Assembly: GCA_001803225.1 (NCBI GenBank)
Contig: MHBF01000078.1
Location: 1 to 64,000 of the forward strand
Reading direction: 5' to 3'
Length of the DNA: 64,000 bases
From: Lentisphaerae bacterium GWF2_44_16
GTDB taxonomy: Bacteria; Verrucomicrobiota; Lentisphaeria; Victivallales; GWF2-45-14
Shown here: positions 10,437 through 44,961 of the stretch, piece after piece
Position numbering within the stretch: the stretch's first letter is position 1
Layout: the number at the start of each line of letters is the position of its first letter
Program-made: the position numbers and the translations under genes
Notes under the pieces: model-generated
The model's input: the letters and a program-made list of their open reading frames with translations, nothing else
Told to the model about the DNA's origin: nothing
Databases searched by the model: none

Positions 10437-13400
10437 TCATTTGCCAAACGCTTCCGGTGAAGCTCCTAAAATGTCCGGTATGCCTTCCAGCGACATTCTG
10501 CTTGTGGTGCTGAACATCGCCCGTTCAAGTTTCCAAATACCGGCTCCTTTTCCTTTCAGTGTGAAAAGTGAGTTGGTATTTGAGGGGGCCCAATATACTT
10601 CGTCGGCGATTTCTCCGGATGGCGAATAAAGTACGGCGCCACCGTATCTGCCGGATTTTCTTGGACCGACTTTCACCTGAAATTCTTTTCCCTCGGGAAC
10701 CTTGAAATAAACAGTGCCGATGTTGGGGAAACCAAGCCGGTTCAGCAGAGTCAGCCTTGGAAGCGAACTGTCCACCAGTATTTCATGGTACAAAGTGTCA
10801 GACATTTTAACGATTACCCTGTATGTTCCGGTTGTCCCGTCCTTTGGTATTTTGTAAGTGTATGTTTTCGAGTAATACTCTTTCAGTTTTTCGTCCAGCA
10901 CAATTTTGCCGTCAGGTGAAATTACGCGGATATGACCAAAATGTTCCGGCGTAAAGCGGGGTTCTTCTGTCCTCATCTTGTTCTCAGTAGAATCCGGATA
11001 TCCCTCCCAGTTGCCAATAACCAGCCCTCTGGCGACACGTCCCATCCTGAAAGCCGCAACCCTCGATACTGATACTGTAAAGTCTCCGTCCTCTGTCTCA
11101 TCAATAAGCGCTTCGCCGGTGGATTTACCGGAGGCTTTCTCCGTAAGAGCGGATATTATCGGGAGGAACGGTTTCGAAAATGGTTCCTTCAGTCCCATGG
11201 ATTTCATGGACTTGAGAAAATGCGGCGCACACCAGAAGGTGGTCGGATCGCAGATGCGGTTTTGCATATAATAATAGAGATATCCAACATATTTTTTCAC
11301 ATATTCGTCCTTTCCCGTAATCTCGTACAGATCAGGAAGCACATCCAGTATCATTACCCTTCCGTCCTCATTGTAAAGGCTGTCCGAAGGGAGCTCTGAA
11401 TTGAGCGGGAAGGACACATTGTCAACCATGTTTTGCCCGGCGATTTTGAAGAGTTCCCGGGCAAGGGGGTCCCTCGTCGTCTCATAGTAATCCCGAATCG
11501 CCTCCAGGCAAACTGCCGGCTGGCCCAGCGTGTTTCCCAGCCTGGCCGTAGAAAAAGCATCACGCCAATAGGAGAAAAAATTCATTATTTTTGCGGAAGC
11601 CCGCAGGTATTCCGGTTTGCTTGAAATCATGTATGCGGAACATAGATTTTTCAGTGGCCATGCGTATTCTCTGGCAAGTACATGATCTTCCTTAAAATAT
11701 TTTGCAATGTGATATACTGTGGCGTCGGCGTGAAGAACCACACAATCACGAAGCCGTTCGTTACCGCTCAAAAGATACAGATATGCCGCCTCTGAATACC
11801 AGTCATGTCCGCCGCCGCCAGTCTGAAGATAAACCAGATTGCGTTCGGCAGTATTATTTTTTCCGGCGTGCTGAGTCGTGTGTGCATAGACTGCTCCCTG
11901 TTCCTTCTCTTTGTCGCGTCCCAGTCCAGGAGCGTGGCATGTGTCTATGTCTGCGTAATGCATGATGGACTGCCTGGCAAGGGAGAGATATTCCTTTTTG
12001 CCGGTTCTGACAAACTGGCGGAAAAGGGCCATTCCCACTGCGGTCTCAAGGTTCATCCACAGATCCGGATTGTCGGAAAAATAATCCCCGAAATCCCTCA
12101 ACCCGTATTGGTCTCCGAAGATTTTCGGCAGCACACTGAAATTTCTTATCCAGTTGTCTTTTGTCTTTTCAAACAGAGGAAACGAAACTTTGTCTTCTGC
12201 ATCCATTTTTCCGAAAACGCCGCTTGAGCAGAGCCACCCGGCGGGAGGCATCAGGAATGGTTCACTCAGAAAATCCAAAACCGTGTCTTTCTCGTCGAAC
12301 CCGAACATGAACTGCTGGGTCTTGGACATTCCATGATAGAAATTGTTTCTGGGTGTTCCATTACGGCAACTTTCTCTGCAACTGAGGTAAACGGCGAAAC
12401 TTTCCCCTGACAATGTTATTTTTTTAGGATTGTTCTGCCAGCATTCGAATATTCCGATGTTTGCCTTCATTAAGTCGTTTTCACTGGACATGAAACCGGA
12501 AAACTTTGTTCCGTTCCCAAGCGTTTCGGCGCCATTGCTGATGGTAAATGGATATTTAACACGCTGGTTCTCATAAATGGCCCCGTCTTGAAACAGCTGA
12601 ATCTCTTTTCCTTTAAAACTTCCTGACTGCGCGCCGTCGACCCCTAGCTGGTAGCGGCTATGCTTGCCGTCCCATGCCCCTTCGATGCTTATGTCCGGCA
12701 TTGGGTTGTCGGTGATGCCGGATTCGTTTACAAATGTAAATGTGCATCGTATGGACTTTGAACCCCGCATGAAATAAAACCGGGATGAAAAACTGTAGCC
12801 CGACTTGTTCCCGTCCAGGGCATAGATGCCGCTTACCTTGATGACACATGACAAAGGCCCGCTTTGTTCGATCTCAACGGTTTTTCCGGATATGGGGAAA
12901 CAGACATCATCTTTATTCCTCAGAACACTTTTGCAGCCTTCAGTTGAAAATACCCCTACTTTTTCGCCTTTTGCGTTGGTGAAACTCAGTTCGTCAAGTA
13001 ATTTTCCGCCGCTCTTGCTGAACTTGGCGGACAGTCCGCCGGCATCAACCAGTATTTTCCCGTCATCCTCGGCGCATATCGGTTTCCGGTCAGCAATTTT
13101 CGACTTGGCATTCTCTCCGTATGCCATGCCATAGGAGACCGCTCCAGTCAGATCGGCTGAAAATTCCAACTGGGCGACCCTGATTGAGCCGTCCGGCCAT
13201 AGTGATAGTATTTTTGTCTGCGCCGGGCATTCTTTCCCATTAGCCAGAACTTGCAGTTTGCCTATTTCGGTCAATACACCTTCAGGGAACGGAACTCCGG
13301 TTTTCATCGGGTAATTCCGGCTTTTCCCTGTTTCCAATGGTGAAAGAGCAAGAGTTCCCGATTTTGCATTGTCAAGAGTTTTTTTATCGCTGAAGACTTT

Positions 13401-14036
13401 TCCTTCAAAAATCATTTTTCTCTGTGCATGCTGGTTCTTGTCGCTTGTTGCACGGATGTTCCGTACCTGTATCTGCCCCTTCCGGTAAAAGCCTGAAGCT
13501 CCAAGGCGGCTGCTCATGGACTGGTTTACTTCAAGAGAGAGCTTTACAATATCAGGCTCGAAAACATTTATTTTCCCTTTTGTATTGCAATACATTTCGC
13601 TGGATGGAACTGTCAATGACTTCCACTGGCCCGTCCAGTTCAATGCCAGGGGCCTGCTGCTCCACACTGACCCATCCCTGCAGGTTGCGTGGAGAAAAAA
13701 CATGTGTCCGGAAGCCTCATTGTTCATGATTTCAAGATGGAAAACCGGATCAGGAATCTTTATTTCAACTGGCAGGTTTGCGGTATTTTTGCTGTTTCTC
13801 TCGCTAAATCCGTATGTTACGCGAGGAAACTGATAATTAAATGTCCAGGAATTGTCCGTATTACGGGTAAATTCGCTTTGGCAGTTTACTGGGGCTTTAA
13901 CACTCCACGGCTTGCTGCCTTCCTCCGCTCCAATTAACATTTCTGAAGGGTTTTCAATGGCAGATGCGGCAGTCAACATAAATATGCAGAGAACACCTGT
14001 GCAGCCCAATAATATAATCCTTACTTTTTTTCGCAT
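10437..14036 (-). CDS. Large secreted PcRGLX/YetA-like protein (putative exo-rhamnogalacturonan lyase)
   Basis: 1199 residues with a signal peptide (hydrophobic stretch 5-25, ending in ASA). After an N-terminal beta-domain, residues around 235-300 carry the PcRGLX/YetA N-terminal pattern: TGVPFPEGVL, a GKLQVLANGKE strand, then LSLWPDGSIRVAQLEF. A central beta-rich part and an (alpha/alpha) barrel follow (roughly 650-1000, with DNPDLWMNLETAVGMALF and GGGGHDWYSEAAYLYLL), then a C-terminal beta-sandwich. Family members are exo-acting rhamnogalacturonan lyases (PL26 type); the exact substrate here is inferred. AAGGGA precedes the ATG. The pseudopilin gene lies 209 bases upstream and the SGNH gene 24 bases downstream. 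Its length is well above the usual family size because of added beta-domains. Confidence 0.72.
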   Translation of the reverse strand: MRKKVRIILLGCTGVLCIFMLTAASAIENPSEMLIGAEEGSKPWSVKAPVNCQSEFTRNTDNSWTFNYQFPRVTYGFSERNSKNTANLPVEIKIPDPVFHLEIMNNEASGHMFFLHATCRDGSVWSSRPLALNWTGQWKSLTVPSSEMYCNTKGKINVFEPDIVKLSLEVNQSMSSRLGASGFYRKGQIQVRNIRATSDKNQHAQRKMIFEGKVFSDKKTLDNAKSGTLALSPLETGKSRNYPMKTGVPFPEGVLTEIGKLQVLANGKECPAQTKILSLWPDGSIRVAQLEFSADLTGAVSYGMAYGENAKSKIADRKPICAEDDGKILVDAGGLSAKFSKSGGKLLDELSFTNAKGEKVGVFSTEGCKSVLRNKDDVCFPISGKTVEIEQSGPLSCVIKVSGIYALDGNKSGYSFSSRFYFMRGSKSIRCTFTFVNESGITDNPMPDISIEGAWDGKHSRYQLGVDGAQSGSFKGKEIQLFQDGAIYENQRVKYPFTISNGAETLGNGTKFSGFMSSENDLMKANIGIFECWQNNPKKITLSGESFAVYLSCRESCRNGTPRNNFYHGMSKTQQFMFGFDEKDTVLDFLSEPFLMPPAGWLCSSGVFGKMDAEDKVSFPLFEKTKDNWIRNFSVLPKIFGDQYGLRDFGDYFSDNPDLWMNLETAVGMALFRQFVRTGKKEYLSLARQSIMHYADIDTCHAPGLGRDKEKEQGAVYAHTTQHAGKNNTAERNLVYLQTGGGGHDWYSEAAYLYLLSGNERLRDCVVLHADATVYHIAKYFKEDHVLAREYAWPLKNLCSAYMISSKPEYLRASAKIMNFFSYWRDAFSTARLGNTLGQPAVCLEAIRDYYETTRDPLARELFKIAGQNMVDNVSFPLNSELPSDSLYNEDGRVMILDVLPDLYEITGKDEYVKKYVGYLYYYMQNRICDPTTFWCAPHFLKSMKSMGLKEPFSKPFLPIISALTEKASGKSTGEALIDETEDGDFTVSVSRVAAFRMGRVARGLVIGNWEGYPDSTENKMRTEEPRFTPEHFGHIRVISPDGKIVLDEKLKEYYSKTYTYKIPKDGTTGTYRVIVKMSDTLYHEILVDSSLPRLTLLNRLGFPNIGTVYFKVPEGKEFQVKVGPRKSGRYGGAVLYSPSGEIADEVYWAPSNTNSLFTLKGKGAGIWKLERAMFSTTSRMSLEGIPDILGASPEAFGK

Positions 14037-14245: not shown

Positions 14246-14917
14246 TTATGGCAAAAGCGGGTTTACTTCTCTTGCTGTTACCCCGGTGGGTTTTTTCCTC
14301 CCGGAATGACCATCCATGTAAACCACATTTCCATAGCCATTATGAACATTTCCGAAACGTTCAAGTATATTTGACGTGTTGAAGGGATAGCCGTTATTGC
14401 CGGAATCCATGACCCAAAACGTTGTTGACGGGCGTGGAAAGCAAGCTTGAGTGAATTTCATAGGTACCAGCGCGGTGTAGGGGTCAGCGCAATGGTAATA
14501 AGTCATAGCATAATGACGTGCGCTGTTTGTAATGACGGTCCCGTCATTTCTCAAAAAACTTGGATAATTCCGGGAAGGACATTTAAGAACGCCGCTGTAC
14601 CGCGGGCCCAATTGTATTGTGTTCATGCCAAGGTAGTCCCGTTTAAATAAAGTCAGCTCGCCGCCGTCAAAACCGAGATTGCTGGTCGAATTGCCGTCAG
14701 AAAGCCTGGGTGAATTAGGCGAAGGTATATAACTGTTGAAATCAATTGTATATTCGTTGAACGCCTGTTGCACCTGTCTCAGTCGTGATGTGCAATTTAT
14801 GCTCTTGGCGCTGGCCTTTGCCAGATTAAGGCCCGGCAGCAATATAGAAACAAGCAATGCTATAATCGCTATCACAACGAGGAGTTCGACGAGAGTGAAG
14901 AACAGTTTTATTTTCAT
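14246..14917 (-). CDS. Prepilin-type pseudopilin with H-X9-DG motif
   Basis: 223 residues. A very short leader (MKIKLF) is followed by FTLVELLVVIAI, the type IV prepilin cleavage/methylation motif with glutamate at position 5 of the mature protein and a hydrophobic helix to about residue 30. Next comes the C-term SRLRQVQQAFNEY helix typical of these families. The C-terminus has HNGYGNVVYMDG, an exact H-X9-DG motif. These proteins are expected to be exported and processed by a prepilin peptidase; the function of the soluble domain is unknown. The start ATG overlaps the stop of the upstream GntR gene (ATGA) and is preceded by AGGAG, so the two are co-translated. Confidence 0.9.
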   Translation of the reverse strand: MKIKLFFTLVELLVVIAIIALLVSILLPGLNLAKASAKSINCTSRLRQVQQAFNEYTIDFNSYIPSPNSPRLSDGNSTSNLGFDGGELTLFKRDYLGMNTIQLGPRYSGVLKCPSRNYPSFLRNDGTVITNSARHYAMTYYHCADPYTALVPMKFTQACFPRPSTTFWVMDSGNNGYPFNTSNILERFGNVHNGYGNVVYMDGHSGRKKPTGVTAREVNPLLP

Positions 14918-16011
14918 TTTTTTCTCCTGTCCGCTACGCTGCCTTTATCTGTTATTTTGAACGGCGCTTTTATTTTCAATTGCGTATAAGTGTTTTTTTC
15001 TTTCCTGAGTTCTTCTATCCTTTGGTAAATAGCGTCAAAGAACACAGACAGATCATTTGATCCGCATGTCAGGGTTTTGCCTTCTTTTCCCGAAGTGGAA
15101 AAAACGCTGATGTCTGACGGGACATTCAATCCACGCTGTTTTAAAATATCAAGAATGTCCTCTTGCGGCGTTCCAGCGAGCATTACTGCGTCAAATTCAG
15201 TTCCGGCATTTAAAAGCTTTTCTATTTTTTCACTGTAAAATGCGCTGTGATTCCTGCCTTTCATCCCTGAAGGAAACTCCTCGACAATTATTTTGACGCC
15301 GGCATTCCTTGCCCTTTGCCGGGCCTCATCCAGAAATTCAGCGTTGAAATAATGTTTGAGATTGCCTATAAACATAACTATGCTTTTATGTCCGCTGTTT
15401 ATAAGATGTCCCGTGCAGTTCAACGCAAATGCCCTGTTGTCATCGACAATCTGATTGTATTCAATGTTGCTGAAGTTTTTGACCTTGAAATCGCCTATGA
15501 AGATTACGGGATAAGGCAATTGCAAAAGCTTTTGAACGATTTTTCTGTCGGCAGTTGAACACGCCACCAAGACACATTCAATACCGTGAGTGTCGGATAT
15601 TCTGGAAATCTCCGCGTCCAGCATGGCATCAGATGAAATATCCCTGGGTATTACCCTTGTCAGAAAAGTACAATTGTCCTTCAAATACGGCGGGCATGTT
15701 ATCTTAAAAAGTTCATGGAGATAATGATTGTCAGGATATACGTCATATGCCAGAAAATATATTCCTGTCGCGTTTACCGGATAATGCGTTGACTTTACAT
15801 ATATGCCTCTCCGCCCGTTCCTCTGAATTAAATTCTCCTTTTCCAGAAAATCATATGAAGTCTCGACCACCTGTCTGCTGACGGAAAAATTTTCAGCAAT
15901 CCGCCTTACAGTGTCCAGGCGTGAACCACCGGGAAGTTTTCCGGAAAGTATCCTGTCGCGAAAGAACTTCGCTATCTGAGAAGACTTTGGCGGAGCGGTT
16001 ACAATTTTCAT
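14914..16011 (-). CDS. GntR-family regulator with LacI-type sugar-binding domain
   Basis: About 365 residues. The N-terminal winged helix (residues 1-70) has the GntR pattern SQIAKFFRDRILSGKLPGG and FSVSRQVVETSYDFLEKENLI. The rest resembles the periplasmic-binding/LacI ligand domain (LINSGHKSIVMFIGNL, FDAVMLAGTPQEDIL, ISVFSTSG). This arrangement is known from AraR-like regulators of sugar use. The start at 16011 is supported by AAAGGATG eight bases upstream. It is first gene of the long minus-strand run and shares a 4-base overlap with the pseudopilin, so it probably controls the whole operon and itself. Confidence 0.87.
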   Translation of the reverse strand: MKIVTAPPKSSQIAKFFRDRILSGKLPGGSRLDTVRRIAENFSVSRQVVETSYDFLEKENLIQRNGRRGIYVKSTHYPVNATGIYFLAYDVYPDNHYLHELFKITCPPYLKDNCTFLTRVIPRDISSDAMLDAEISRISDTHGIECVLVACSTADRKIVQKLLQLPYPVIFIGDFKVKNFSNIEYNQIVDDNRAFALNCTGHLINSGHKSIVMFIGNLKHYFNAEFLDEARQRARNAGVKIIVEEFPSGMKGRNHSAFYSEKIEKLLNAGTEFDAVMLAGTPQEDILDILKQRGLNVPSDISVFSTSGKEGKTLTCGSNDLSVFFDAIYQRIEELRKEKNTYTQLKIKAPFKITDKGSVADRRKK

Positions 16012-16033
16012 GTTTTTGACATCCTTTGTAAAT

Positions 16034-16062
16034 ATTATATGACAAAAGATGACAAAGTGCAA
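16034..16062 (-). promoter_or_regulatory. Sigma-70-type promoter with direct-repeat operator for the GntR/PcRGLX operon
   Basis: On the minus strand TTGCAC (16057-16062) and TATAAT (16034-16039) are separated by exactly 17 bases. The spacer contains two copies of TTTGTCA (16050-16056 and 16040-16046), spaced exactly 10 bp, so one face of the helix between -35 and -10 would be covered. The downstream gene encodes a GntR-type regulator, so autoregulation is likely. Confidence 0.6.
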
Positions 16063-22365: not shown

Positions 22366-22376
22366 AAAATCAAGCC

Positions 22377-25300
22377 TTATTCAGACCATAATTTTTCATA
22401 GTTTATTTTGCCGTGCCAATCCAGAGCGGCCCTTATGTCGCTGAGTTTCTTCGTCCATTCCAGAGGGAATTTCCAACGGGCGCTTTGAATTTCCTGAAAT
22501 GTTTTTGGGTATTTATTGGTCATATATAAAAACATGTCGATACTTATCGGTTCAGCGACTGAAGAATTGTAAGGAATTTCAAAATATTTCGGATCAAAAA
22601 AGTCGTCCGTTGCATTGGACCATATATCTTTGTATGGACGCATGATTTCCGGCAACGGGGTCATTACAAAAGAACCGTAAGCGTTTAAGTCTGCATATCC
22701 CTTGATTATATTCTGAGAAAAACCCGCAAACTCGTTGAATTCCACATAATGGATATTGCGGCTTCTCTCAACAAATTCCATTTCGTTGCTTTCAGTATGA
22801 GAGGCGGGCCATGGACGATTTTGTCTTAAATATTTATTGGCATTCAGGGCTGCCTGCATTCCGACTAATTGCATTACGGAAAAATAGGCGGCTTTGTCTC
22901 TTAAAACACGGTCTCCCATAATCTGCGCCATTCGTGCCATGGCTGACGCGCCTGCATGTATTATGCCGCTTTCCTGCAAACCGTTTCCAACTCTGATACC
23001 GCTGAATGTGTCCCATGAAATGCAGACCGCCCAGTCATGGCTGTTGGGAATCAGATTGAAAAACATGTTTATCTTTTCCCAATTGTTCTTTATGAAATCA
23101 TCCTGTTTAAACGCATATGCATAGTGCCATGCGGTGTACAATCTCAGAGACTCCCAGCATACTGAATCTATCGCGTGCTCGTTTTGGTTCGGTGTGTATG
23201 ATGAAAGCTTCTTTCCCGACATCGGGCTGGTCAGCGTGAAAGTAAGACCATTCTTTTGTACTATTGGCAGGAGTTTTGATTGAAAAGAGGGTTCCGGTTT
23301 TCCTTCGAGAAAGAGATATTTTTCCATTTCATCTTTCAGCATCTTGAAAACCTTTTCTTTCAATTCCGGCGTCAGGTACTGCATCCCCAGAATGATGTTG
23401 GATATCTCCGGTTCCGCGTTTCCCGGTACGTATTTCTCATGATAAATCATCCATTCCCACGGGTGTACGGAAAGCTTTTTCAGATTCTTGCTGTAGATTT
23501 CTTTCAGTTCCTTTCGTAGAGGAAGAGTTTCCGGCTGAGTGCCGTGTATGATGCTCCTGGCTTCATTGCTGAAATGCAACATTTTTTCAATTGATATCAG
23601 AGCACTTTCCTTGTTTAATATCGCGGTGTACGGGCCGTGCAAAGTCGCCATCTCAAGGTCTGTGATTTTGTCGTTTACTGTAATTGGGATATTGCCTGAA
23701 GATGACGCAAGGGGCAGGGCAGGGGGAAGCGGCGCTATTTTCAGGGGAACTGTATTCCATTCGTTGTTTATTGTCTGATACTCGAACTGATCCTTCAGTA
23801 TTACTCTGTCATTCGGATAATCTATACTGAAACTGCGTTTGACTTCAACGGGAGAGGACATCAGTACTTTTGACCAGAAGGAACATCTTTCCGTTATAGC
23901 TTCAGGTATTTTTTTGCTCCACGACTCTGTTTCAGATGGAGGCAGGAGCTTTACTCCGAAAAGCGGCATGCCGGATAAATTGCCTGCCTCCTTGTTGAAT
24001 GTGAATGTCAGCGCGTTATCATTTATGCTTATGCTCTGCGTTTTTTTCTCCAGTGCGAAAAGCCACGGCATATCGAATTCGCTCCAATTCTCAGAGCCGT
24101 TGAACCAGGTCAGTATCCAGTTTGAAGACATATCGGAACCATCTATGGCATCTCCTTTTTTGATAACTTTGAGATTATTTTTTTTATCCATATAAGCGAT
24201 ATGAGAGGGTAAGCCTATCTTCCATTGAGAAATATTTTGAAAGATATTAATCGAATTAGCGTCAGTGCGTAAGTTCCATGCCGGAGAAAGACTGCTTATT
24301 CTAAATTCCAGTTTTTTCCCGTCTTCGAAACTATAAGTCCATGTTCTTCCCGACCATGAGCTCCGGGTAACTTCGGCAGAAACTTTCTTGCTTTTCCCGA
24401 TTGAAATGTGTCCCAGCATCCAGGCATCATTGAAACCGTCATATTCCCTGCCTTTTGCCGCGAGGTAATAGTCTGGTTTGTGAAGGACTTTCGGCGATGG
24501 CCTTACATTATTAATAAAGACCAGCGGCGAGGGTTCAATGTCCGCGCAAAAAACTGAAAAGGTCAATGAACCTCTTGCGTCAGGCACTGACATTGAATTT
24601 TTCAAAACATCATCTTTGGTGACGCGCGGACCGAAAGTCCCGACAGAATCTTTTATTTCTTGTATGTTTTTAGCGGGTAATGTGAGTTTTTCATCAGTTG
24701 GAACGGTGTATTTGTCTGCCGCTGCGATGGTGAACGGTATTTTCTGTTCTGAGAGTATACTGTCAGCAGTTTTTAATATCAAATCACAAAAGTATTTACC
24801 TTCTTTTTCCGCTTTCAATTCGACAGGTTTGAATTCCGTCCATCGCAATGATTGCAGCTGGCATGACAGTTTTTGGGATTGTAATATTTTTCCGTCCGCC
24901 GAAAACATTTTTACTTCCAGAGAGGCCGGAATATTGTTTTTATCAGAAGGCATGTATGCGAATTCAGGAGCTACTGCTATATATTGGCCGGGCTGATATC
25001 TGTTAAGGTGGGTATTGTTTGTTATAAGACTGGCAAGCGAATTTCCCCCTTTGATTTTAAGTTGGAAACCGCTGATGACTTTGTTTTCAACAATATATAT
25101 TTTCGGAATCCCTGAATACATTCCTCCCGCGTATCCTGTGTGTATCCTGACTGCAATCAGATTTTCCTTTCCTGCCTTGAACGGGGATTTGTCTGAAGGC
25201 ACATAGTATTTGCGTGCTACCCAGCTGCTGCCGGGGATAGGCTGTGCCGGAGGGCAGGTACCGTACGAACCCAACAACACGCCGTTGACATATACCTCGT

Positions 25301-25664
25301 CAAAATTTGAAATATAACCAAGATTTATTATTAAACCTTTTGACGCAAAATTTTCAGGAAGAACAAAATGATTTCTATACCAGCAGAAACCTGATTTGAA
25401 GCCTTGAGTGAAAATAGAGGAATTTATTTTCACGGGTTTCCATTTTGAATCATCATAGTCATTTTTTGCGTATTTTAAATTATCTCCCTCTTTTATTTTC
25501 CACCCGTCAACGGGCAGTTGAAGGGAAATCCCCTCCTTGTATTTTGCCGTCATCTTTTCCATCTGTGAAACCGGACGGCTTTCGTTTTGGGCATAGCTTC
25601 CCATTTGCATTGCCGCGCCCAGAAACAGTACGGATAATAACTCTATTCGCCTGAAGAAAAACAT
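22377..25664 (-). CDS. Large secreted protein with GH2-like jelly-roll domain (putative glycoside hydrolase)
   Basis: About 1095 residues with a signal peptide (LLSVLFLGAAMQMGSYA). Residues ~50-190 match a galactose-binding/GH2 sugar-binding jelly roll: WYRNHFVLPENF, INLGYISNFDEVYVNGVLLG, ENLIAVRIH. A long beta-rich middle (330-700) and an alpha-helical C-terminal region (about 790-1090, with SVCWESLRLYTAWHYAYAF) follow, suggesting an (alpha/alpha) barrel. No catalytic motif can be named, so the activity is inferred from neighbours and fold. ATG at 25664 is chosen because AAGGAG precedes it; an upstream GTG overlaps that site. Third gene of the FAD oxidoreductase-pseudopilin operon. Confidence 0.55.
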   Translation of the reverse strand: MFFFRRIELLSVLFLGAAMQMGSYAQNESRPVSQMEKMTAKYKEGISLQLPVDGWKIKEGDNLKYAKNDYDDSKWKPVKINSSIFTQGFKSGFCWYRNHFVLPENFASKGLIINLGYISNFDEVYVNGVLLGSYGTCPPAQPIPGSSWVARKYYVPSDKSPFKAGKENLIAVRIHTGYAGGMYSGIPKIYIVENKVISGFQLKIKGGNSLASLITNNTHLNRYQPGQYIAVAPEFAYMPSDKNNIPASLEVKMFSADGKILQSQKLSCQLQSLRWTEFKPVELKAEKEGKYFCDLILKTADSILSEQKIPFTIAAADKYTVPTDEKLTLPAKNIQEIKDSVGTFGPRVTKDDVLKNSMSVPDARGSLTFSVFCADIEPSPLVFINNVRPSPKVLHKPDYYLAAKGREYDGFNDAWMLGHISIGKSKKVSAEVTRSSWSGRTWTYSFEDGKKLEFRISSLSPAWNLRTDANSINIFQNISQWKIGLPSHIAYMDKKNNLKVIKKGDAIDGSDMSSNWILTWFNGSENWSEFDMPWLFALEKKTQSISINDNALTFTFNKEAGNLSGMPLFGVKLLPPSETESWSKKIPEAITERCSFWSKVLMSSPVEVKRSFSIDYPNDRVILKDQFEYQTINNEWNTVPLKIAPLPPALPLASSSGNIPITVNDKITDLEMATLHGPYTAILNKESALISIEKMLHFSNEARSIIHGTQPETLPLRKELKEIYSKNLKKLSVHPWEWMIYHEKYVPGNAEPEISNIILGMQYLTPELKEKVFKMLKDEMEKYLFLEGKPEPSFQSKLLPIVQKNGLTFTLTSPMSGKKLSSYTPNQNEHAIDSVCWESLRLYTAWHYAYAFKQDDFIKNNWEKINMFFNLIPNSHDWAVCISWDTFSGIRVGNGLQESGIIHAGASAMARMAQIMGDRVLRDKAAYFSVMQLVGMQAALNANKYLRQNRPWPASHTESNEMEFVERSRNIHYVEFNEFAGFSQNIIKGYADLNAYGSFVMTPLPEIMRPYKDIWSNATDDFFDPKYFEIPYNSSVAEPISIDMFLYMTNKYPKTFQEIQSARWKFPLEWTKKLSDIRAALDWHGKINYEKLWSE

Positions 25665-25682
25665 TTTGCCCACTCCTTATAA

Positions 25683-26357
25683 TTAATTGTTTGGTATTAT
25701 CATGCTGTTGTTAATGTCTTTGAATTTAACGATTGCCACGTGTCCGTCACCAAAGAGACAGTTTGCCGCTGAATTGTGATGAAAGCCCATGCGGTCATCT
25801 TCTATTAGCGGGTAGGGGCTACCGGTCGCGCAGGCAAAGGCCCGATATACGGAAATTATTGAAGAATCACCATACGATATTATGGCGCTTGGAGTCTGTA
25901 TCATATTAATTTTCTTCTGTACGAAGCCTGCCCATGACAATACCGGATGGAGATTTGCGTTTGCGCTGTAATCAAAATAAGAATTGCTCCCCTGCCACGT
26001 ATTCAGGGGGCAGTTAAGGACATTCCGGTTGTTCCATTTAATAAATTCGCTGTAGGACTGTTTGTTCGTTACCAGTATATCAGAAATCACTCCGGTATAG
26101 CTTAATACATTTATATTGGCGCTGTTGGTGGATGCGGAAAGCCATCCGTCATAATCATTGATGTAGGTATTGAGCGCCAATCCTATCTGTTTGAGATTGT
26201 TTTTGCATACCATTGATTTGGTAAGATTTCTTGCCTGCTGGAGCGCGGGAAGGAGCATCGCGGCCAGTATAGCTATGATTGAAATCACTATCAGGAGCTC
26301 GATGAGAGTAAAGTGCAATAAGTTCCTGAAAATCTTCTTATCATGTTTTCTCTTCAC
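25683..26357 (-). CDS. Prepilin-type pseudopilin with H-X9-DG motif (GTG start)
   Basis: About 224 residues. A charged leader of some 16 residues is followed by [21 protein letters not shown], the prepilin motif with glutamate 5 and a long hydrophobic helix, then the [23 protein letters not shown] helix. The C-terminus has [12 protein letters not shown], an exact H-X9-DG motif. A GTG at 26357 is chosen because AAAAAAGGAG lies five bases upstream; the frame continues upstream to an ATG at 26450, but that overlaps the FAD oxidoreductase gene by 74 bases without a ribosome binding site. It is followed after nine bases by the 1095-residue secreted protein. Confidence 0.88.
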
Positions 26358-26376
26358 TTGTGCTCCTTTTTTAGTT

Positions 26377-27687
26377 TCAATCCTGAAAATTCGGCAGATA
26401 TGCTCCAAGCTCCTTAAGTTTCTTCTGCAAAAGCTTTGTGTCAATGTCATGTGCCGTTTTTTTGCCGTTTGTTTGCGCGAGTATTGACGCGGCGGTTCCG
26501 GCGGCCTGTCCGGTAATGAAGCAGCCGGGCATGACCCTTATGGAGCTCTGCATATAACGGTCCGTGCTTATGCAGCGCCCGGCGACAAGGGCATTGTCCA
26601 GGTCTTTTGGCACCAACGCCCTGTAGGGGATGCCGTAATTTTCGCCCTGTTTATGGCGGAACCCTGTAATTTCCTCACGGAAATGCTGGTATGAGGCAAT
26701 GTCATTTTTATTGGGATGAATATCGACGGGATACGAGAATCTGCCTATCTCGTCATCAAAGGAGGCGCGTTTTTTAAAGTCGTCAAGGGTCATCTCATAA
26801 TCTCCTTTTATGCGGCGTGTTTCGCGGATGCCGAGCAGAGAACCGCTTGAGACCAGTGTCATATTTTCATATCCTTTAAGGTATTCCTTGTAATACCGTT
26901 CAAATTCAGGCAGGATTTTTCGTCCCCTTAGGAGTCCTTTTGTGATGGATTCATCATCCGTGCCATCCAAATCATACACATGTCCAATGTTCGCACCGGC
27001 GACACCGTGCCCGAAAGACGCCATCCCCGGAACATGCCTGTCGGGAATAGAGAAAACTCCGTCCGCAAAAGCCTTTTCAAGCATTTTGTGATGATCGGCG
27101 GAGCGGTTTTTCCAGTCAACATTGCACCATAGACTGCAAAGAGTCCCTGGCATCAATGTGGCGTCCGCATCTCCTTTTTCAAAAGCTGCCCCGGCCATCG
27201 CCGCAAGGTCTCCGTCTCCGGTACAATCTATGAACACTTTTGCCTTTACTGCGAAAATCCCGTTTTTCGAATTGCATATTGCAAGAGAAATATTTTTTTC
27301 GTCTCTCTGGACATCTATCAGTTGGGTATGAAAATTAAATAAAACCCCTGCTGCCGTTATGAGCTCATCATAAACCCTTTTCAGCAGTTCCGCGTTTATG
27401 GCCGGAGTCTTTCCCAGTTCATATCCCATTTTGTCAAAAATTTCTTTTCCGATGCCCCCGGCAAGAAAATTGATGCCGTCGGTGAAATTGCAGAACCACG
27501 GCACCAACCCGGCTGTTCCCATGCCGCCGAAACAGGAATGTCCCTCCGCCAGAAAAACACTGCCCCCCTGTCTTGCCGCCGCGATTGCCGCCGCCGCTCC
27601 GGCTGGGCCTCCGCCCGCTATAAATACATCTGTCTCATATCTGAGAGGAATTTCGCGGCTGAATGATATCTTTCTTGCTGTGTTCAT
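26377..27687 (-). CDS. FAD-dependent oxidoreductase (FAD_oxidored family)
   Basis: About 436 residues. The N-terminal dinucleotide-binding motif is [20 protein letters not shown], followed by [12 protein letters not shown], the second FAD block [16 protein letters not shown] and the C-terminal [17 protein letters not shown] and [16 protein letters not shown] segments. This family is common in PVC carbohydrate clusters and often acts on unknown, possibly exported, substrates. No signal peptide is seen here. The start at 27687 is preferred since the longer frame's extra 25 residues are lysine-rich and unlike the family. First gene of the cassette; promoter at 27722-27749. Confidence 0.85.
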
Positions 27688-27721
27688 TTTTTTAATCCAT
27701 TTCTGTTGTTCTTTGTTTATA

Positions 27722-27749
27722 ATTATACTTGATTTTTTTTTAATGACAA
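27722..27749 (-). promoter_or_regulatory. Sigma-70-type promoter for the FAD oxidoreductase cassette
   Basis: On the minus strand TTGTCA (27749-27744), a 16-base A-rich spacer and TATAAT (27727-27722). It faces away from the divergent PocR-AraC gene starting at 27785, so the regulator probably acts in this 97-base gap. Confidence 0.55.
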
Positions 27750-27784
27750 TGTACTTTTTCACTATTGTTATGTATTAATCTATT

Positions 27785-28648
27785 ATGAATGAACTTATAA
27801 AACTTATTGAGGCGTTTGAACGCCGTTGCGGATTTAAAATATCCGTTCATGATTATTCGGGCAGGCTGTGGAGCTATTTGCAGATGAAGAGGCAGCGGCA
27901 CGACAGCGGATATTGCGATTGTATCAAAGAAAAATACGGGATTGATAAATGTCTGTTTTTTGAAAAACGCAGAGTGCTGCTGGTATTGGCGCGTTACCCT
28001 GATGGCTTCTTTAAAATCTGTCATGGCGGAATAATAGAATATGCCGCGCCCATTATTAAGGATGCCTCTATTCTCGGTACCATGTTCATTGGTTTTTTCC
28101 GTCTGAAAGATGTTTCCTTAATTCCTGACGCGATTGTGTGCAGATCTGAATGCTGTGATTTTGCGCCGGAACTCAATAATAAATTATATAAGGGAATCCA
28201 GTGTATCGACAAAAATGATTTCAAAGATATAGCTGAAATCGCCAAAACTCTGAAGTTCAGAATCGAGGCGCAGCTGGCGACGGAAGAAAAAATTTTCATT
28301 TCACACGAAGAAAAGACTAAATGGGAAATTGACAGATACATCGGGCAGAATTTCCAGAAAGATATAAGTATTCAGCATCTCGCCAAGCATCTGTGCCTTT
28401 CTGTTTCACGCACCGGACAGCTTGTCAGGAAGCTTTTTAACATGACTTATCCCGAACTGCTCAACAGAAACAGGATAGATAACGCAAAAATCCTTTTATC
28501 TTCAACTTCCCTTTCCATAAGCGAAACCGCGTACAGATGCGGCTTTTCGGATGCGGCTTATTTTCACAGGATTTTCAAAAAACTGGAAAAAATAAACCCC
28601 GGAGAATATAAAATCCGGAACAATAAGATTAAAAATATGTTTACGTAG
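27785..28648 (+). CDS. AraC-family regulator with PocR-type sensory domain
   Basis: 287 residues. The N-terminal ~140 residues match the PocR ligand-binding domain (a PAS-like fold): FKISVHDYSGRLW, CIKEKYGIDKCLFFEK, FKICHGGIIEYAAPI. The C-terminal AraC helix-turn-helix pair covers about 188-287: ISIQHLAKHLCLSVSRTGQL and ISETAYRCGFSDAAYFHRIFKK. PocR domains sense small metabolites such as diols or hydrocarbon derivatives. It is transcribed divergently from the FAD oxidoreductase-pseudopilin-secreted protein operon and is its likely activator. It ends four bases from the convergent epimerase gene. Confidence 0.88.
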   Translation: MNELIKLIEAFERRCGFKISVHDYSGRLWSYLQMKRQRHDSGYCDCIKEKYGIDKCLFFEKRRVLLVLARYPDGFFKICHGGIIEYAAPIIKDASILGTMFIGFFRLKDVSLIPDAIVCRSECCDFAPELNNKLYKGIQCIDKNDFKDIAEIAKTLKFRIEAQLATEEKIFISHEEKTKWEIDRYIGQNFQKDISIQHLAKHLCLSVSRTGQLVRKLFNMTYPELLNRNRIDNAKILLSSTSLSISETAYRCGFSDAAYFHRIFKKLEKINPGEYKIRNNKIKNMFT

Positions 28649-38367: not shown

Positions 38368-38380
38368 TATAATATCCCTT

Positions 38381-39398: not shown

Positions 39399-39426
39399 AT
39401 CTATGAAATAAGACGGATGGTGAATT

Positions 39427-40557
39427 ATGCGGGAATGTGGAAAATCATTGAAATTGTACGATAAGGTAAAAGATACCTTAAAGGAGCAGATTGTATCCGG
39501 GATATACAAGCCGTCCGAATTGCTGCCGTGTTCGGAAGAACTCTCCGCAAAATACAAGGTCAGCCTGATAACAATCCGCAGGGCGCTGACGGAACTTCAA
39601 AGCGAAGGATTGATATTACTGCACCAGGGAAGAAGAGCGGAAATTGCGGATACGGCAAAAGGCAGAGCTAAAGTTTTTTTTAAAACACGTCCTAAAACAA
39701 ATATATTCGTAATACTTGCTCCTTCCCGGGCAAAGGCGCTTTCCGACAATTCAATAACTTCACAATCAGCGCCCTGGACTTATACCATATTTTCAGGCGT
39801 ACAATCTGAACTGATGAATGCCGACGTTTCGTTCAGTCTTATCCGGCTGGAGTCGCCAATGGAAATACCGGAGGTACTGAAAAACAATTCCTCCTGTTAT
39901 GACGGCGTAATTATTTTTGCCGCGAATCTGGGAAAAACGGCGGGTGAACTGATACCCCAGATAAAAAAGCCATACTGCCTGATTAGCGGACAGACCGAGT
40001 TTAATTCGGTCTGTCCTGATTATTATAATGGAAGCAGCCGGGTGGCTGAATATTTTCTGAACCATAATATGGAGAATTTTCTATTTCTGAAAACTTCCCT
40101 GAGTGGTGTTTCGCTTCAGAAAATGCGCGGGTTTCAAGAAGGATTATTGTTCAATGGGGTCAGTCCGGACAGAATACATATAGTACATGCTGAGAATATT
40201 GATGCGGAGAATTCTGAAAAAGCCGTTCTGAATTTTCTGAACGCAAAAAGCAATATTCCGCCTATGGGAATTTTCACGGCTGGAGATTATATGGCGGCGG
40301 GAGCAGCCAACGCGTGTAAAAAGAAAGGCTTGAAGCTTATTCAGGATTATATGGTTATCGCCAGTACGGGACTTAAGGAGGCAGAGAGCTTTTCTCCTAA
40401 ACTTTCCGTACTGGCAGACCCGATGTTTGAAACGGGGAGAGAAGCTTCAAAAATGGTATTGGATATGATAAAAAATAAATCCATGCGCGAGCCGTCTGTA
40501 ATATTGTCGATGGAATTCGTTCACCGGGAGACGACAATATTGTCGAACAACGTATAA
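39427..40557 (+). CDS. GntR-family regulator with LacI-type sugar-binding domain
   Basis: 376 residues. A winged helix is at about 8-75: LYDKVKDTLKEQIVSGIYKPSE, SAKYKVSLITIRRALTELQSEGLI. The remainder resembles the LacI periplasmic-binding fold (NIFVILAPSRAKA, GVIIFAANLGKTAGEL, YYNGSSRVAEYFL, FTAGDYMAAGAANACKKKGL). GGATGG lies about six bases before the ATG. It heads the third regulator-pseudopilin-secreted-protein cassette. A perfect 14-bp palindrome lies inside its last codons and a cloverleaf element two bases after its stop, so downstream expression could be controlled locally. Confidence 0.9.
   Translation: MRECGKSLKLYDKVKDTLKEQIVSGIYKPSELLPCSEELSAKYKVSLITIRRALTELQSEGLILLHQGRRAEIADTAKGRAKVFFKTRPKTNIFVILAPSRAKALSDNSITSQSAPWTYTIFSGVQSELMNADVSFSLIRLESPMEIPEVLKNNSSCYDGVIIFAANLGKTAGELIPQIKKPYCLISGQTEFNSVCPDYYNGSSRVAEYFLNHNMENFLFLKTSLSGVSLQKMRGFQEGLLFNGVSPDRIHIVHAENIDAENSEKAVLNFLNAKSNIPPMGIFTAGDYMAAGAANACKKKGLKLIQDYMVIASTGLKEAESFSPKLSVLADPMFETGREASKMVLDMIKNKSMREPSVILSMEFVHRETTILSNNV
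40532..40545. promoter_or_regulatory. Perfect 14-bp palindrome, possible operator
   Basis: CGACAAT followed by ATTGTCG, inside the 3' end of the GntR gene and upstream of the pseudopilin operon. A half-copy, ATTGTCGA, is at 40503-40510. GntR dimers bind such palindromes, so it may be the operator of this cassette. Confidence 0.35.
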
Positions 40558-40559
40558 TT

Positions 40560-40623: not shown

Positions 40624-40692
40624 ATGATAAGGATGTATTAATGAGACTGAATGAATTGCTGGGAGAATGTACAAGTTAAGAAAGAATACTGG

Positions 40693-41385
40693 ATGAAAAA
40701 AAGACAGAATTTGTGGAGATTTACGTTATTGGAGTTGCTGATAGTCATATCAATTATCATGATATTGGCTTCTCTTCTCCTGCCTGCGCTTAAAAATTCG
40801 AAGGATACCGCAAAATCCATTCTATGCGCCGGGAAGCTTAAACAGATTGGCCTGGCCGAAAATTCTTATGCCGGGGATTTCAACGGTTGGCGCGCGACGC
40901 CTCCAGCTCTTAAAGGGCCATGCGGTACTTGCGGAACTGCAAATAAAGGCATAAATACTTTCGGAGGATATAACGCCTCACAAACATCTTCTATTCCTCG
41001 TGTACTTATTTCCAATCAATACCTCCCTGGAAAGTTAGACGCATCTTCCCAGACGTCTTTCAAATGCCCCGGCAATGATTTCTGGTGGCTTCATGAAACG
41101 CTTACGGACAGTATAAGTGCCGGAAAACATCTCTCATATCAGTATTTTTTCATTCACGAAGGCTGTACTAATTATTCCAGCCAATATCAGAGAAACATAC
41201 TATTTAACAGCCTTCCGGGAAACATAATATGGAGCGACTATGGGCCGTACAGGTCAAACCCGGTGATTAATCACCCTAACGGGGATTTCAATGCTTTGGC
41301 CGTTGATGGCAGGGTGAAGAGATTTAAAGTAATTAATCTGAGTGATGGAAACTGGACCTCAAGATATGATGTAATTGATAAATAA
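40693..41385 (+). CDS. Prepilin-type pseudopilin with H-X10-DG motif
   Basis: About 230 residues. The leader MKKRQNLWR precedes [21 protein letters not shown] with glutamate 5 and the hydrophobic helix, then SILCAGKLKQIGLAENSYAGDF. The C-terminus has HPNGDFNALAVDG, which is H-X10-DG rather than the exact H-X9-DG seen in the other two pseudopilins here. Start ATG 40693 has only a weak AAGAAAG site; a more upstream ATG at 40651 is possible but gives a long leader. The gene is 34 bases upstream of the secreted 438-residue protein. Exported and peptidase-processed by family analogy. Confidence 0.87.
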   Translation: MKKRQNLWRFTLLELLIVISIIMILASLLLPALKNSKDTAKSILCAGKLKQIGLAENSYAGDFNGWRATPPALKGPCGTCGTANKGINTFGGYNASQTSSIPRVLISNQYLPGKLDASSQTSFKCPGNDFWWLHETLTDSISAGKHLSYQYFFIHEGCTNYSSQYQRNILFNSLPGNIIWSDYGPYRSNPVINHPNGDFNALAVDGRVKRFKVINLSDGNWTSRYDVIDK

Positions 41386-41419
41386 AAAAGAAAAGAATTA
41401 TTGTTAAAGGAGATTACGA

Positions 41420-42736
41420 ATGAATAAAGGGCGTATCAGAATTTCAATTTTTCTGTCAGCTGTGACATCTCTGATTTTAGGAATTCATGCGGCATCTGTT
41501 GAAAGTACAGAAGATATAAGCAACGGTGTTTTCACCGTAAAGGCGAAAAAGTCTCTGGAGGTAGTGGAAGGCGGGACTGTATTTATAGAAAAGGATATGT
41601 CAAATTCTTTCGATTCATTCGAGATTGCCGAAGAGTTGATCACCAGTAACAATGCCGAAGTTCCGGCAATCAATGTGATTTACAAGAACGGTAAAGATTT
41701 GCAATTCCGCAAAGAAACGGCCCTTCACGAAGACGGTATTCTGGAACTCACCATGAGAGTGCGTTTTTTTCCTGTTACCGATAGTCTCGTGAAAAGAGCA
41801 TTCACTTATTCCTTTCTTGTTCCGGCCAAAATATTGGATGGGATGGAATTTAAAGCGGTTGTAGGCAGGATACATGGTAAATTGAAACGGATGGAAGGAC
41901 GATTCGGTCCGGCTAACGGCAAAATATCACAATGCAGATATATTGTTTTTGAAGGAGAAAAAAACAGTTTTACGTTTGATTTCAATCCTGCGGGACCATT
42001 TTCGGGTGTAGATTTTCCGAGGTACGGAAACCCTGTCGGATACTGGGATATAGTACGTGAGGGAAAATACGTTAAATTTTCATTTTCAGGAAATGTCGAA
42101 TACTATGGAACAGTAATCGCGGGAAAAGTTTTCATTTACAAGGGGATTCATGATTTTGAACAAAAACATGCTCAATATGACGAGTATGATTGTGGACAAG
42201 GCGGAACAGCGCATAAATTTACATTTGGAACTTTTGAGGATATAAAGACGTTCGAAAAAGCTGACTGCGGAGAATATTCACCCGCGAAAAAATGGGGATG
42301 GGAAAAAACAGCAGGTCTGAAAACGGTACAATCCAAACAAACTGACATAACCAGTAATTGCGTTGCGTCTTCAAGTGAAGTATCCAACAATTTTATTGTT
42401 GATGTCCAGCCGGGTGTTTATCTGCTTACTGTCAGGTGTGGGCACAATACTCAGAAAACGGGACCTTTTAGTATCTCCGTCAATGGACAAATCGCGGCTG
42501 AAAATATTGAAATTCCCGTGGGTGAAACAAAAACCCTGGATTTTGTCGAGTATCTCAGAGCGCCGGGAAAACAAATTAAAATAGGATTTTCAGGAGAAAA
42601 TACGTGGGCTGTACGGTGCATCATGCTGCAGGCAATCGTGTTTCAGAATGAAGATTTTTCCATTGACCGTAAGTTATGGGTAACAGATAAACTTTTCTCG
42701 CCTGAATTAGAATATAAAAATAAGGAAAACAAATAA
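41420..42736 (+). CDS. Secreted protein with C-terminal carbohydrate-binding-like domain
   Basis: 438 residues with a signal peptide (SIFLSAVTSLILGIHAAS). The N-terminal 280 residues are beta-rich and not recognised. Residues ~285-425 look like a malectin- or CBM-like jelly roll: FIVDVQPGVYLLTVRCG, FSISVNGQIAAENIEIPVGETK and KIGFSGENTWAVRCIMLQAI. TAAAGGAG precedes the ATG. Its stop shares the A of the next gene's ATG (TAATG), so it is translationally coupled to the GHL6-like protein and probably acts with it outside the cytoplasm. Confidence 0.6.
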   Translation: MNKGRIRISIFLSAVTSLILGIHAASVESTEDISNGVFTVKAKKSLEVVEGGTVFIEKDMSNSFDSFEIAEELITSNNAEVPAINVIYKNGKDLQFRKETALHEDGILELTMRVRFFPVTDSLVKRAFTYSFLVPAKILDGMEFKAVVGRIHGKLKRMEGRFGPANGKISQCRYIVFEGEKNSFTFDFNPAGPFSGVDFPRYGNPVGYWDIVREGKYVKFSFSGNVEYYGTVIAGKVFIYKGIHDFEQKHAQYDEYDCGQGGTAHKFTFGTFEDIKTFEKADCGEYSPAKKWGWEKTAGLKTVQSKQTDITSNCVASSSEVSNNFIVDVQPGVYLLTVRCGHNTQKTGPFSISVNGQIAAENIEIPVGETKTLDFVEYLRAPGKQIKIGFSGENTWAVRCIMLQAIVFQNEDFSIDRKLWVTDKLFSPELEYKNKENK

Positions 42737-44961
42737 TGCGAAAAATAAAATTATCAGGAAAACTCCTCTGTCTTGTATCGGTAATATTGACACTAGGTGG
42801 CCTGACTGTAAATATTCAAGCTTCAGAAAAAATTCTCCCTGCAATCTCCCGAACGGAAGTTTTATTGCCCTCTGATAGCGATGAATTAGCATGGCGTTAT
42901 AACGTGAAAATGGCGGCTTTCACAGGCGGATGTTCATGTTTTGTATATGAACTGAATACCCCGGAACTCATCAAATGGCGTATCGCGGAAATGAAAAAAG
43001 AAGGACTGAATACGATTATGCTCAATGGTCTTCATATGCATCTTTGTCTATTGGAGCGTTGGTCGGAAATAGTGGAATATGTAAAAACGTTAACACTTCT
43101 CGCGCATGAGAATGGTATGAAAGTTATTTTTCATCATGATGTTCCTATTGTTCACAATAACGGGACCGGCTTGAACTATGTTATTGAACATATAGATTGG
43201 CTGCAAAGAGATATCCAGTATGACCGTCCGGCTTTCAACCGTTTCTGTTTCAATAACCCTGAATTCAGAAAATCTTATTTTGACAGAGTTGAAGATCTTG
43301 TGAGGAAAACTGATATTGACGGCGTAAAGCTTGATGAGGTAACTTTCATAGACAAAGAATACTGCGGGTGCAGATATTGCCGTGAACGTTTTACAATGGA
43401 AACAGGACTAATTCTCCCTACGGAAAACAATTCATCCGTACTCTTTAATCAGAAAAATCCCATCTGGATTGCCTGGCTGAACTGGCGCAAGCGTTCCGTG
43501 GGCGACTGGTGGGTTGACATGAGAAAAAGATTCAACATTGTGAAACCTGATTTCTGTATAATGATATACTCCACACATTACGGCTTCACTAGCAACTGGG
43601 CCACAAACAATTTGGGTTTTGATCTCTTGCAATCGGCACGTGGGTGTGATTTTCTCGGAACTGAAATTATGACACGCAACGTTTATGACAGTTACCGGGC
43701 CGTTTATGCTTATCGTAAAGCCAAGGCTGGGCTTGGCGATTTTTATGGCTCGCCCGTATATGGACTTGTCTATCATTTAAATGATCCTGTTTACGCTTAT
43801 TTCGGATGGGCCATGAACCATATGAATCGTCAGACAACCTTGATGAGTACCATAGTAGGAGAAAAGTCTTCCCACTATTTAGACTGGAATGAAAAGATGA
43901 ATTGCCGATATGCAAAACCGATGTCTGATATAGCCATAGTTTTTTCTGGCAACGCTAGAGATTTCGGCGGGATTTTGCCATATATGCCTGATGTTTTCGG
44001 CACTTCTCAATGCCTCTCTGACGCGCATATACAGCATGATATTATTATGCAGGGGGACTTGCTGAACGGCTTAAAACTTTCTCAATATAAATTGCTCATG
44101 CTTACCTGTCTTGGCAATATGAGCGAAAAAGAAGTTCAGGCAGTCCGCCAATATGTCGCCATGGGCGGTACTCTCTTTGTATCCGGGCATACGTCATTGT
44201 TGAATGAAAGCGGTTTTGAGCAGCCTGATTTCCAGCTTGCGGACGTAATGGGTGTGGATGCGCTGAAAGGACGACTGTACAAAGCTCCAACGACTATCCT
44301 CATGAATGCCGACGGCAAAACCTTAACCATTCCATATTCTGCCGTCAAGGTGAAATTGCGCAAGGACGCAAAAATAATTGCCGAAATAATAAATAAAGAA
44401 CAGAAACCAATCGTTCCTGCTATTGTGTCTAATACCTATGGCAAAGGACAATGTCTTTATAGTGCGCTTCCACTGGGAATTCTCAATAATCAACCTGAAT
44501 ATAGATATGGCAAAAAAATGGAGTTTGAAAAAAATCAGGCCGTTTGTGATTTTTATATGTCCCTTGTTAAAGACATAACTCATGACAATCTGGATTTCAA
44601 AGGAATTGATATCCCTGAGAAAGTTCTGGTCAATGTGTGCAAGCAGAACGTCAAAGACAAAAAAGAAGTACTGGTTCACCTCCTCAACGCAACAGGAACA
44701 GGCGTAAAAAAAGGAGACATTATTCCCGGAAAATCGGATTGGAAAAAGAGAGGCAATCCTTTTCCGCCGCTTGAGAGAGATATTGTTTTCGATATCCGCC
44801 CCGGAGGAAATGTTTCAAGCGCCGTAATCGTATCCCCTGACTATAAGGGTGAGCGTCCGGTTAAACTGGAAAAACTTGACAACGGATATCTGAAAGTAAC
44901 TGTAAAAAAAGAAGATCTACAGGCATATTCGATTGTATATCTGGAACTCTTAAACAACTGA
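42736..44961 (+). CDS. Secreted GHL6-like glycoside-hydrolase-related protein
   Basis: 741 residues with a signal peptide (LLCLVSVILTLGGLTVNIQAS). Residues ~50-400 resemble the hypothetical glycosyl hydrolase 6 TIM barrel: RIAEMKKEGLNTIMLN, GMKVIFHHDVPIVHNNG, DIDGVKLDEVTFID (candidate acidic residues), then DWWVDMRKRFNIVKPDFCIM. Residues ~400-610 match a beta-galactosidase trimerisation-like fold (MSDIAIVFSGNARDF, YKLLMLTCLGNMSEKEVQAVRQYVAMGGTLFVSGHTSLL). Catalysis is not proven. It overlaps the 438-residue protein gene by one base and ends the cassette. Confidence 0.65.
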   Translation: MRKIKLSGKLLCLVSVILTLGGLTVNIQASEKILPAISRTEVLLPSDSDELAWRYNVKMAAFTGGCSCFVYELNTPELIKWRIAEMKKEGLNTIMLNGLHMHLCLLERWSEIVEYVKTLTLLAHENGMKVIFHHDVPIVHNNGTGLNYVIEHIDWLQRDIQYDRPAFNRFCFNNPEFRKSYFDRVEDLVRKTDIDGVKLDEVTFIDKEYCGCRYCRERFTMETGLILPTENNSSVLFNQKNPIWIAWLNWRKRSVGDWWVDMRKRFNIVKPDFCIMIYSTHYGFTSNWATNNLGFDLLQSARGCDFLGTEIMTRNVYDSYRAVYAYRKAKAGLGDFYGSPVYGLVYHLNDPVYAYFGWAMNHMNRQTTLMSTIVGEKSSHYLDWNEKMNCRYAKPMSDIAIVFSGNARDFGGILPYMPDVFGTSQCLSDAHIQHDIIMQGDLLNGLKLSQYKLLMLTCLGNMSEKEVQAVRQYVAMGGTLFVSGHTSLLNESGFEQPDFQLADVMGVDALKGRLYKAPTTILMNADGKTLTIPYSAVKVKLRKDAKIIAEIINKEQKPIVPAIVSNTYGKGQCLYSALPLGILNNQPEYRYGKKMEFEKNQAVCDFYMSLVKDITHDNLDFKGIDIPEKVLVNVCKQNVKDKKEVLVHLLNATGTGVKKGDIIPGKSDWKKRGNPFPPLERDIVFDIRPGGNVSSAVIVSPDYKGERPVKLEKLDNGYLKVTVKKEDLQAYSIVYLELLNN

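Follow-up and report, generated by a model that had tools for sequence, protein, structure and literature searches.

What is a gene for a pilin-like protein doing between a sugar-sensing regulator and the genes of large secreted proteins, and why should one genome keep so many of them? The question is raised by a stretch of 64,000 nucleotides (positions 1 to 64,000 of contig MHBF01000078.1, Lentisphaerae bacterium GWF2_44_16, assembly GCA_001803225.1; hereafter the window), which carries three gene cassettes, each with a regulator, an accessory pseudopilin bearing a C-terminal H-X9-DG or H-X10-DG motif, and large secreted proteins. A preliminary description of the window proposed that each pseudopilin is the private export or display subunit of a dedicated enzyme; it expected such pilins to have a regulator and a secreted enzyme beside them more often than chance would place them there and to co-diverge with that enzyme, and held that the idea would fall if pilins had no link to enzyme family or no conserved gene order. 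We find that the cassettes of the window are unexceptional examples of an architecture that recurs throughout the genome. The best reading of that architecture, which we hold tentatively and with somewhat less than even confidence, is that each cassette brings an accessory pseudopilin which is inducible, specific to its locus and at the service of a shared secretion platform.

The host genome (5.16 Mb in 209 contigs) was sampled by stretches amounting to about 1.38 Mb, in which a relaxed pattern detected 85 pseudopilins of the DUF1559/H-X9-DG type (a stricter first pattern had missed 12 members). Their neighbourhoods were compared with those of the other genes of 150-330 residues in the same stretches (n = 328), counting downstream a secreted protein of at least 380 residues within two codirectional genes and upstream a GntR, LacI or AraC regulator within two genes. 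A secreted protein follows 61/85 pilins against 37/328 background genes (odds ratio 20, p = 1e-27), a regulator precedes 52/85 against 42/328 (odds ratio 11, p = 1e-18), and both neighbours are present for 42/85 against 8/328 (odds ratio 39), in line with the expectation of the preliminary description. As the background stretches were mostly picked for holding a pilin match, the contrast is if anything conservative. Directly preceding codirectional regulators number 31, against 6.9 ± 2.4 under label permutation. The spacing is that of operons: between regulator and pilin an overlap of 4 nt is the commonest arrangement, and the gap from pilin to enzyme is in most cases shorter than 60 nt. In some cassettes the pilin-enzyme module occurs more than once within the operon. 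The architecture exceeds chance genome-wide, and the order of regulator, pseudopilin and large secreted glycan-active protein that had been described from the window is a strong pattern throughout the genome.

A signal-peptide-like start, called by a simple hydrophobicity rule and not by SignalP, is found in 53 of the 69 first large downstream genes and in 74 of 298 other large genes. The Pfam families represented downstream are glycan-active (DUF4838, CBM9, GH42M, PcRGLX, GHL10, GH2, GH20 and GH123), those upstream are GntR, LacI and sugar-binding domains, and, as originally noted for the window, regulator and enzyme families differ from cassette to cassette while the pilin is constant.

Pilins of this type are abundant. 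PF07596 alone gives 62 matches in the host genome and a profile built from 82 pilins gives 230 first-look candidates, whereas an unselected 0.47 Mb holds 12 pilins, that is about 25 per Mb or about 132 per genome. These counts suggest a total of about 130-230 such pseudopilins and well over a hundred regulator/pilin/enzyme gene sets. At about 25 pilins per Mb, three in 64 kb is simply the expected density.

The three window pilins (cassette 1, 14246..14917, minus strand, 223 residues; cassette 2, 25683..26357, minus strand, annotated as open reading frame 25683-26450; cassette 3, 40651..41385, plus strand) all combine a prepilin motif, a long hydrophobic helix and a C-terminal H-X9/10-DG motif (HNGYGNVVYMDG for X9 and HPNGDFNALAVDG for X10), with spacings of X9, X9 and X10, respectively. 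Only the cassette 2 pilin, taken as 25683-26450, passes the PF07596 cut-off (SBP_bac_10/DUF1559, 2.3e-6; 28.3 vs 23.3 bits); it also matches TIGR02532. The pilins of cassettes 1 and 3 have no reported PF07596 match, yet they align within the same family; the former gives sub-threshold GspG/ComGC matches at its N-terminus, and the head of the latter is 61% identical to that of a pilin at L016:155-859. Across 82 aligned pilins, including these three, F47 and E51 of the processing motif are invariant, T48 and L49 are kept in at least 90%, and the cysteine pair and the histidine of H-X9-DG are present in 82/82. Nine columns are invariant in all, and the heads vary greatly around this core; the features that the heads do conserve (two cysteines and H...N...DGH) are probably structural. 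An AlphaFold model of the cassette 2 pilin shows a long N-terminal helix and a small mixed head (mean predicted local distance difference test score, pLDDT, of 80.7, or 76.1 for the head alone). By sequence, the PDB entries related to it are type IV pilins and GspG, with similarity confined to the N-terminal part, and Foldseek searches of the PDB with the whole pilin and with the head alone gave no significant match.

Could these proteins be ordinary subunits of a secretion piston? The host genome has one complete type II secretion system (T2SS) operon, on contig 84, encoding GspF, GspE, GspD, a GspK-like protein (HHH_3), GspJ/I/H-like proteins and a true GspG (L160:12430-12891, T2SSG 8e-35) in the same operon as GspF, E and D. 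Since this operon has its own GspG/H/I/J/K-like set, the cassette pilins are additional to the piston and not its normal subunits, as the preliminary description had also maintained. This is confirmed by their scores against the GspG model TIGR01710, 26-32 bits with a cut-off of 88.85, and we reject their identification as GspG on these scores and on their position outside the T2SS operon. The cassette 1 pilin was likewise rejected as a Verru_Chthon cassette protein (TIGR02596, 24.2 bits against a cut-off of 70). A single prepilin peptidase match was found in the host genome, along with further secretins and ATPases, some of which probably serve type IV pili. Within the T2SS operon, a MinD/ParA-like ATPase (L160:5571-6335, AAA_31 6.6e-20) lies between GspE and GspD.

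A mechanism that would join these elements is the following. Each cassette would be an inducible glycan-utilisation unit, in which the regulator, a sugar sensor usually of the GntR or LacI type and in some cases of the AraC type, controls an operon for large Sec-exported glycan-active proteins and one DUF1559/H-X9-DG accessory pseudopilin. The only prepilin peptidase detected in the genome would probably cleave the pilin, which would insert in the inner membrane and then join or cap the pilus of the single shared T2SS (or type IV pilus) platform. There it may tune the platform for the induced locus, most likely by recruiting or presenting the secreted proteins of that locus or its glycan.

Several points weigh against this reading. 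When pilin heads were compared with the first large downstream gene, pilin and enzyme similarity proved nearly uncorrelated (Mantel r = 0.04, p = 0.025), and the correlation reached r = 0.088 (p = 0.001) when all large codirectional neighbours within three genes were considered; between regulators and enzymes of paralogous cassettes it was r = -0.03. About ten of the 69 first large downstream genes lack a signal peptide and, as we read them, look cytoplasmic or mis-paired. Regulator-pilin adjacency is weaker in Oligosphaera and in another family (1/10 and 2/10 loci), and the likeness of pilins within one operon, described below, could come from simple tandem duplication. Finally, the pilins could build separate fibres instead of entering the T2SS.

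This last point can be developed into an explanation of its own, in which the pilins would assemble into thin fibres on the cell surface and bind the polysaccharide of the locus with their variable heads, much as surface glycan-binding proteins do in polysaccharide utilisation loci (PULs), with no role in enzyme export. The strong variability of the heads around a kept core would fit such fibres, as would pilins of one operon that are alike despite unrelated enzymes (for example in L138 and L106), and type IV pilin-like structures have been named among the means by which fibre-degrading gut bacteria adhere (PMC4704652). The Foldseek searches, on the other hand, recognised no carbohydrate-binding fold in the head, and we consider this explanation rather unlikely, if worth keeping in view.

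If the accessory pilin serves a locus, does it also belong to a particular enzyme? The narrower of the two correlation tests understated the link between pilin and enzyme, since for several pairs the shared neighbour lies farther away, and after the wider test that link is weak but real. One-to-one co-divergence, as anticipated for private pilins, is not observed. Enzymes that are 39-52% identical over about 1000 residues usually stand beside unrelated pilins, and among 31 pairs of different loci with strongly homologous large neighbours (not all independent, as tandem pilins share neighbours) only one has a similar pilin head, that pair being a cross-genus orthologue. Seen from the other side, a homologous large neighbour is found in 5/17 similar-pilin pairs from different loci, against a background of 3.5%. 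The PcRGLX enzymes were scanned for with an alignment of three close sequences, a six-sequence set being too divergent; a pilin lies upstream in 5/5 readable cases of the host genome and directly upstream in 4/27 readable loci elsewhere in Lentisphaeria. The cassette shared between genera (55% for the regulator, 78% for the enzyme and 69% for the pilin) has, in the second genus, two pilins with heads about 65% alike before two non-homologous enzymes. A dedicated adaptor for one neighbouring enzyme, as first proposed, would account for the very strong adjacency of pilin and enzyme, for the 5/17 pairs and for the orthologous set kept across genera, but it is hard to reconcile with the unrelated pilins beside homologous enzymes, with the relatives' PcRGLX enzymes, most of which have no adjacent pilin, and with closely similar pilins preceding non-homologous enzymes within one operon; we regard it as very unlikely. 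Of the two circumstances that were to decide the matter, then, one holds (there is little link to enzyme family) and the other does not (gene order is conserved).

Two pilins encoded in one operon resemble each other in 6/25 cases, against 0.4% for other loci. This partial coherence within loci, together with the rarity of matching pilins among homologous enzymes, indicates that the pilin follows the locus and not the enzyme family, so that it looks locus-specific rather than enzyme-specific. Gene content can also differ between orthologous cassettes: in one pair from two genera (L138:11291-17177 and L079:7969-13185), one of the two genomes lacks a pilin and a PcRGLX enzyme that the other has, and an SGNH-like hydrolase in one genome occupies the pilin position of the other.

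The tight coupling of regulator and pilin genes, with its gap peak at -4 nt, might instead mean that the pilin, anchored in the membrane, binds solutes or acts as a sensor and informs the neighbouring regulator about the glycan, an idea for which the Pfam name SBP_bac_10 and the treatment of the family as solute-binding in the literature (PMC2754498) also speak. The regulators are, however, soluble GntR/LacI proteins with sugar-binding domains of their own, regulator similarity tracks pilin similarity only marginally (r = 0.07, p = 0.055), and conservation of the prepilin motif suggests a part in pilus assembly, all of which makes a sensory role improbable in our view. There is similarly little chance, we think, that the pilin gene is a mere passenger, a small module that duplication and shuffling have carried into many operons and that does nothing specific at any one of them. 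A passenger could well reach the hundreds of copies seen in some relatives and show the patchy link to particular enzymes, but its position in the operon would not be so strongly ordered, nor would nine columns remain invariant across 82 copies, and in Verruconatronum alginivorum one pseudopilin is expressed with the alginate operon.

How far does the architecture extend? A profile search finds the pilin family in 198/198 genomes of the class, and the other genome of the host's family (G001) has about 100 pilins. In a second genus (21 loci, 28 pilins), a secreted protein lies downstream of 22/28 pilins against 8/52 background genes and both neighbours are present for 12/28 against 3/52, the upstream regulator being a weaker signal (15/28 against 17/52, p = 0.09). 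In three more distant genomes a GntR/LacI regulator directly precedes a pilin or pilin pair in about 7/30 short loci (four in G069, two in G195 and one in the Oligosphaera genome G038), counts that are lower bounds, no more than 1.5 kb of flanking sequence being covered. The strict order belongs to the host's family and to some of its relatives and does not extend to the class as a whole. Arrays of about five tandem pilins occur in relatives (G026:C98, 5454-11670; G038:C1, 1444945-1449026), the window genome having mostly one per operon. A more general picture, possible though on balance doubtful, is that Lentisphaeria have one secretion or pilus platform and more than 100 interchangeable pseudopilins, one per inducible glycan operon, with which the platform would be re-tooled for each polysaccharide eaten.

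Open reading frames and Pfam matches place the three window cassettes where the preliminary description had put them, on the same strands and with the same gene order, with small corrections. Cassette 1, on the minus strand, begins with a regulator (14914..16062) that has a GntR winged helix and a LacI-type sugar-binding domain (GntR 1.7e-11, Peripla_BP_3 4.6e-7). The first 4 nt of the pilin gene are also the last 4 of the regulator gene (ATGA, with AGGAG ahead of it), and the pilin is followed by a PcRGLX-like protein of 1199 residues (10437..14036; PcRGLX_2nd 1.8e-9, PcRGLX_1st 9.8e-6) with a hydrophobic signal-type N-terminus, which had no match in a PDB sequence search. A GDSL/SGNH hydrolase (9765..10412, minus strand; Lipase_GDSL_2 1.6e-8) continues the operon.

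Cassette 2 consists of a divergent PocR-AraC regulator (27785..28648, plus strand; HTH_18 5.8e-18, PocR 1.9e-9) and, on the minus strand, an FAD-dependent oxidoreductase (26377..27762; FAD_oxidored 7e-98), the pilin and a large secreted protein (22377..25673). The preferred pilin start is GTG 26357, behind AAGGAG and just past the oxidoreductase stop, so that the two genes do not overlap; translational coupling of the pilin to a neighbour, suggested earlier for two cassettes, has a real overlap behind it in cassette 1 only, as in cassette 2 the overlap needs a far-upstream ATG. The jelly roll described in the large protein corresponds to a weak GH2-type N-terminal match (BetaGal_ABD2 5.9e-4, below cut-off), and residues 54-137 match GH2 sugar-binding domains in a PDB sequence search (1.2e-5); its length is about 1098 residues, not 1095.

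Cassette 3, on the plus strand, has a GntR regulator with a LacI-type domain (39427..40557; GntR 4.4e-16, Peripla_BP_3 1.3e-14), the pilin, a secreted protein of 438 residues with a galactose-binding-like domain (41420..42736; AGA-YXIM_GBD 5.9e-6, just below cut-off) and a secreted protein of 741 residues (42736..44961). The last had been taken for GHL6-like, and matches GHL10 (6.5e-7) and Glyco_hydro_42M (1.1e-8, GH42 trimerisation-like) instead. Upstream of the window regulators, only short inverted repeats were found, with no convincing operator palindromes. A hairpin-like element (GGAGGGTTGCGCTTCGTCGCAA ... GACGAAGCAAATCCCTCC, 40560-40626) lies between the cassette 3 regulator and pilin; its pattern has eight matches in six sampled stretches of the same genome, and it therefore looks like a dispersed REP-type (repetitive extragenic palindromic) repeat. 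Just 3' of the cassette are a 333-residue protein with a DUF1284-like region (45205-46206) and, beyond it, a 353-residue protein with a Secretin domain (46276-47337, 3.3e-11) that is far shorter than a full GspD.

That the DUF1559 family is expanded in Planctomycetes-Verrucomicrobia-Chlamydiae (PVC) bacteria has long been known, but no function has been attached to it. In this lineage, gene order links its pilins with regulators that respond to sugars and with secreted glycan enzymes, whereas the T2SS pseudopilins are encoded once, which turns the question of DUF1559 function into a directly testable one. It also makes the pilins a genomic handle on uncharacterised secreted glycan enzymes, many of which have only a weak domain match here. 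We found no description of such a genome-wide rule in the literature on H-X9-DG or Lentisphaerae pseudopilins, subscription papers being mostly outside the search.

A partial precedent is the alginate operon of V. alginivorum (Opitutales; PMC13274419, 2026), where a pulG-like pseudopilin (pgaptmp_000050, with 67 paralogues in the genome) lies in an alginate-induced operon and a T2SS is proposed to export the alginate lyases. As there, the pseudopilins described here lie inside glycan operons, adjoin secreted glycan enzymes, have many paralogues and coexist with a separate T2SS; that account concerns one operon with single-replicate proteomes, and includes neither a genome-wide regulator-pilin-enzyme rule nor a pairing test. 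With the PVC families DUF1559/SBP_bac_10 (PF07596) and H-X9-DG (TIGR04294) the cassette pilins share the N-terminal prepilin motif, the C-terminal H-X9-DG and the expansion (68 DUF1559 copies, two of them essential, in Planctopirus limnophila, PMC10632474; 74 in Rhodopirellula baltica, PMC2754498), but two of the three window pilins fall under the Pfam cut-off, and the available parts of these two accounts give no genomic link to regulators or secreted glycan enzymes. They resemble the T2SS proteins GspG/H/I/J/K in their N-terminal processing and helix region and differ from them in being longer, in having a different head, in scoring far below the GspG cut-off and in lying outside the T2SS operon. 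Finally, like the PULs of Bacteroidota, the cassettes bring together a sugar-responsive regulator, secreted glycan enzymes and one accessory family of surface or envelope proteins, but here the accessory position is held by a pilin-like protein.

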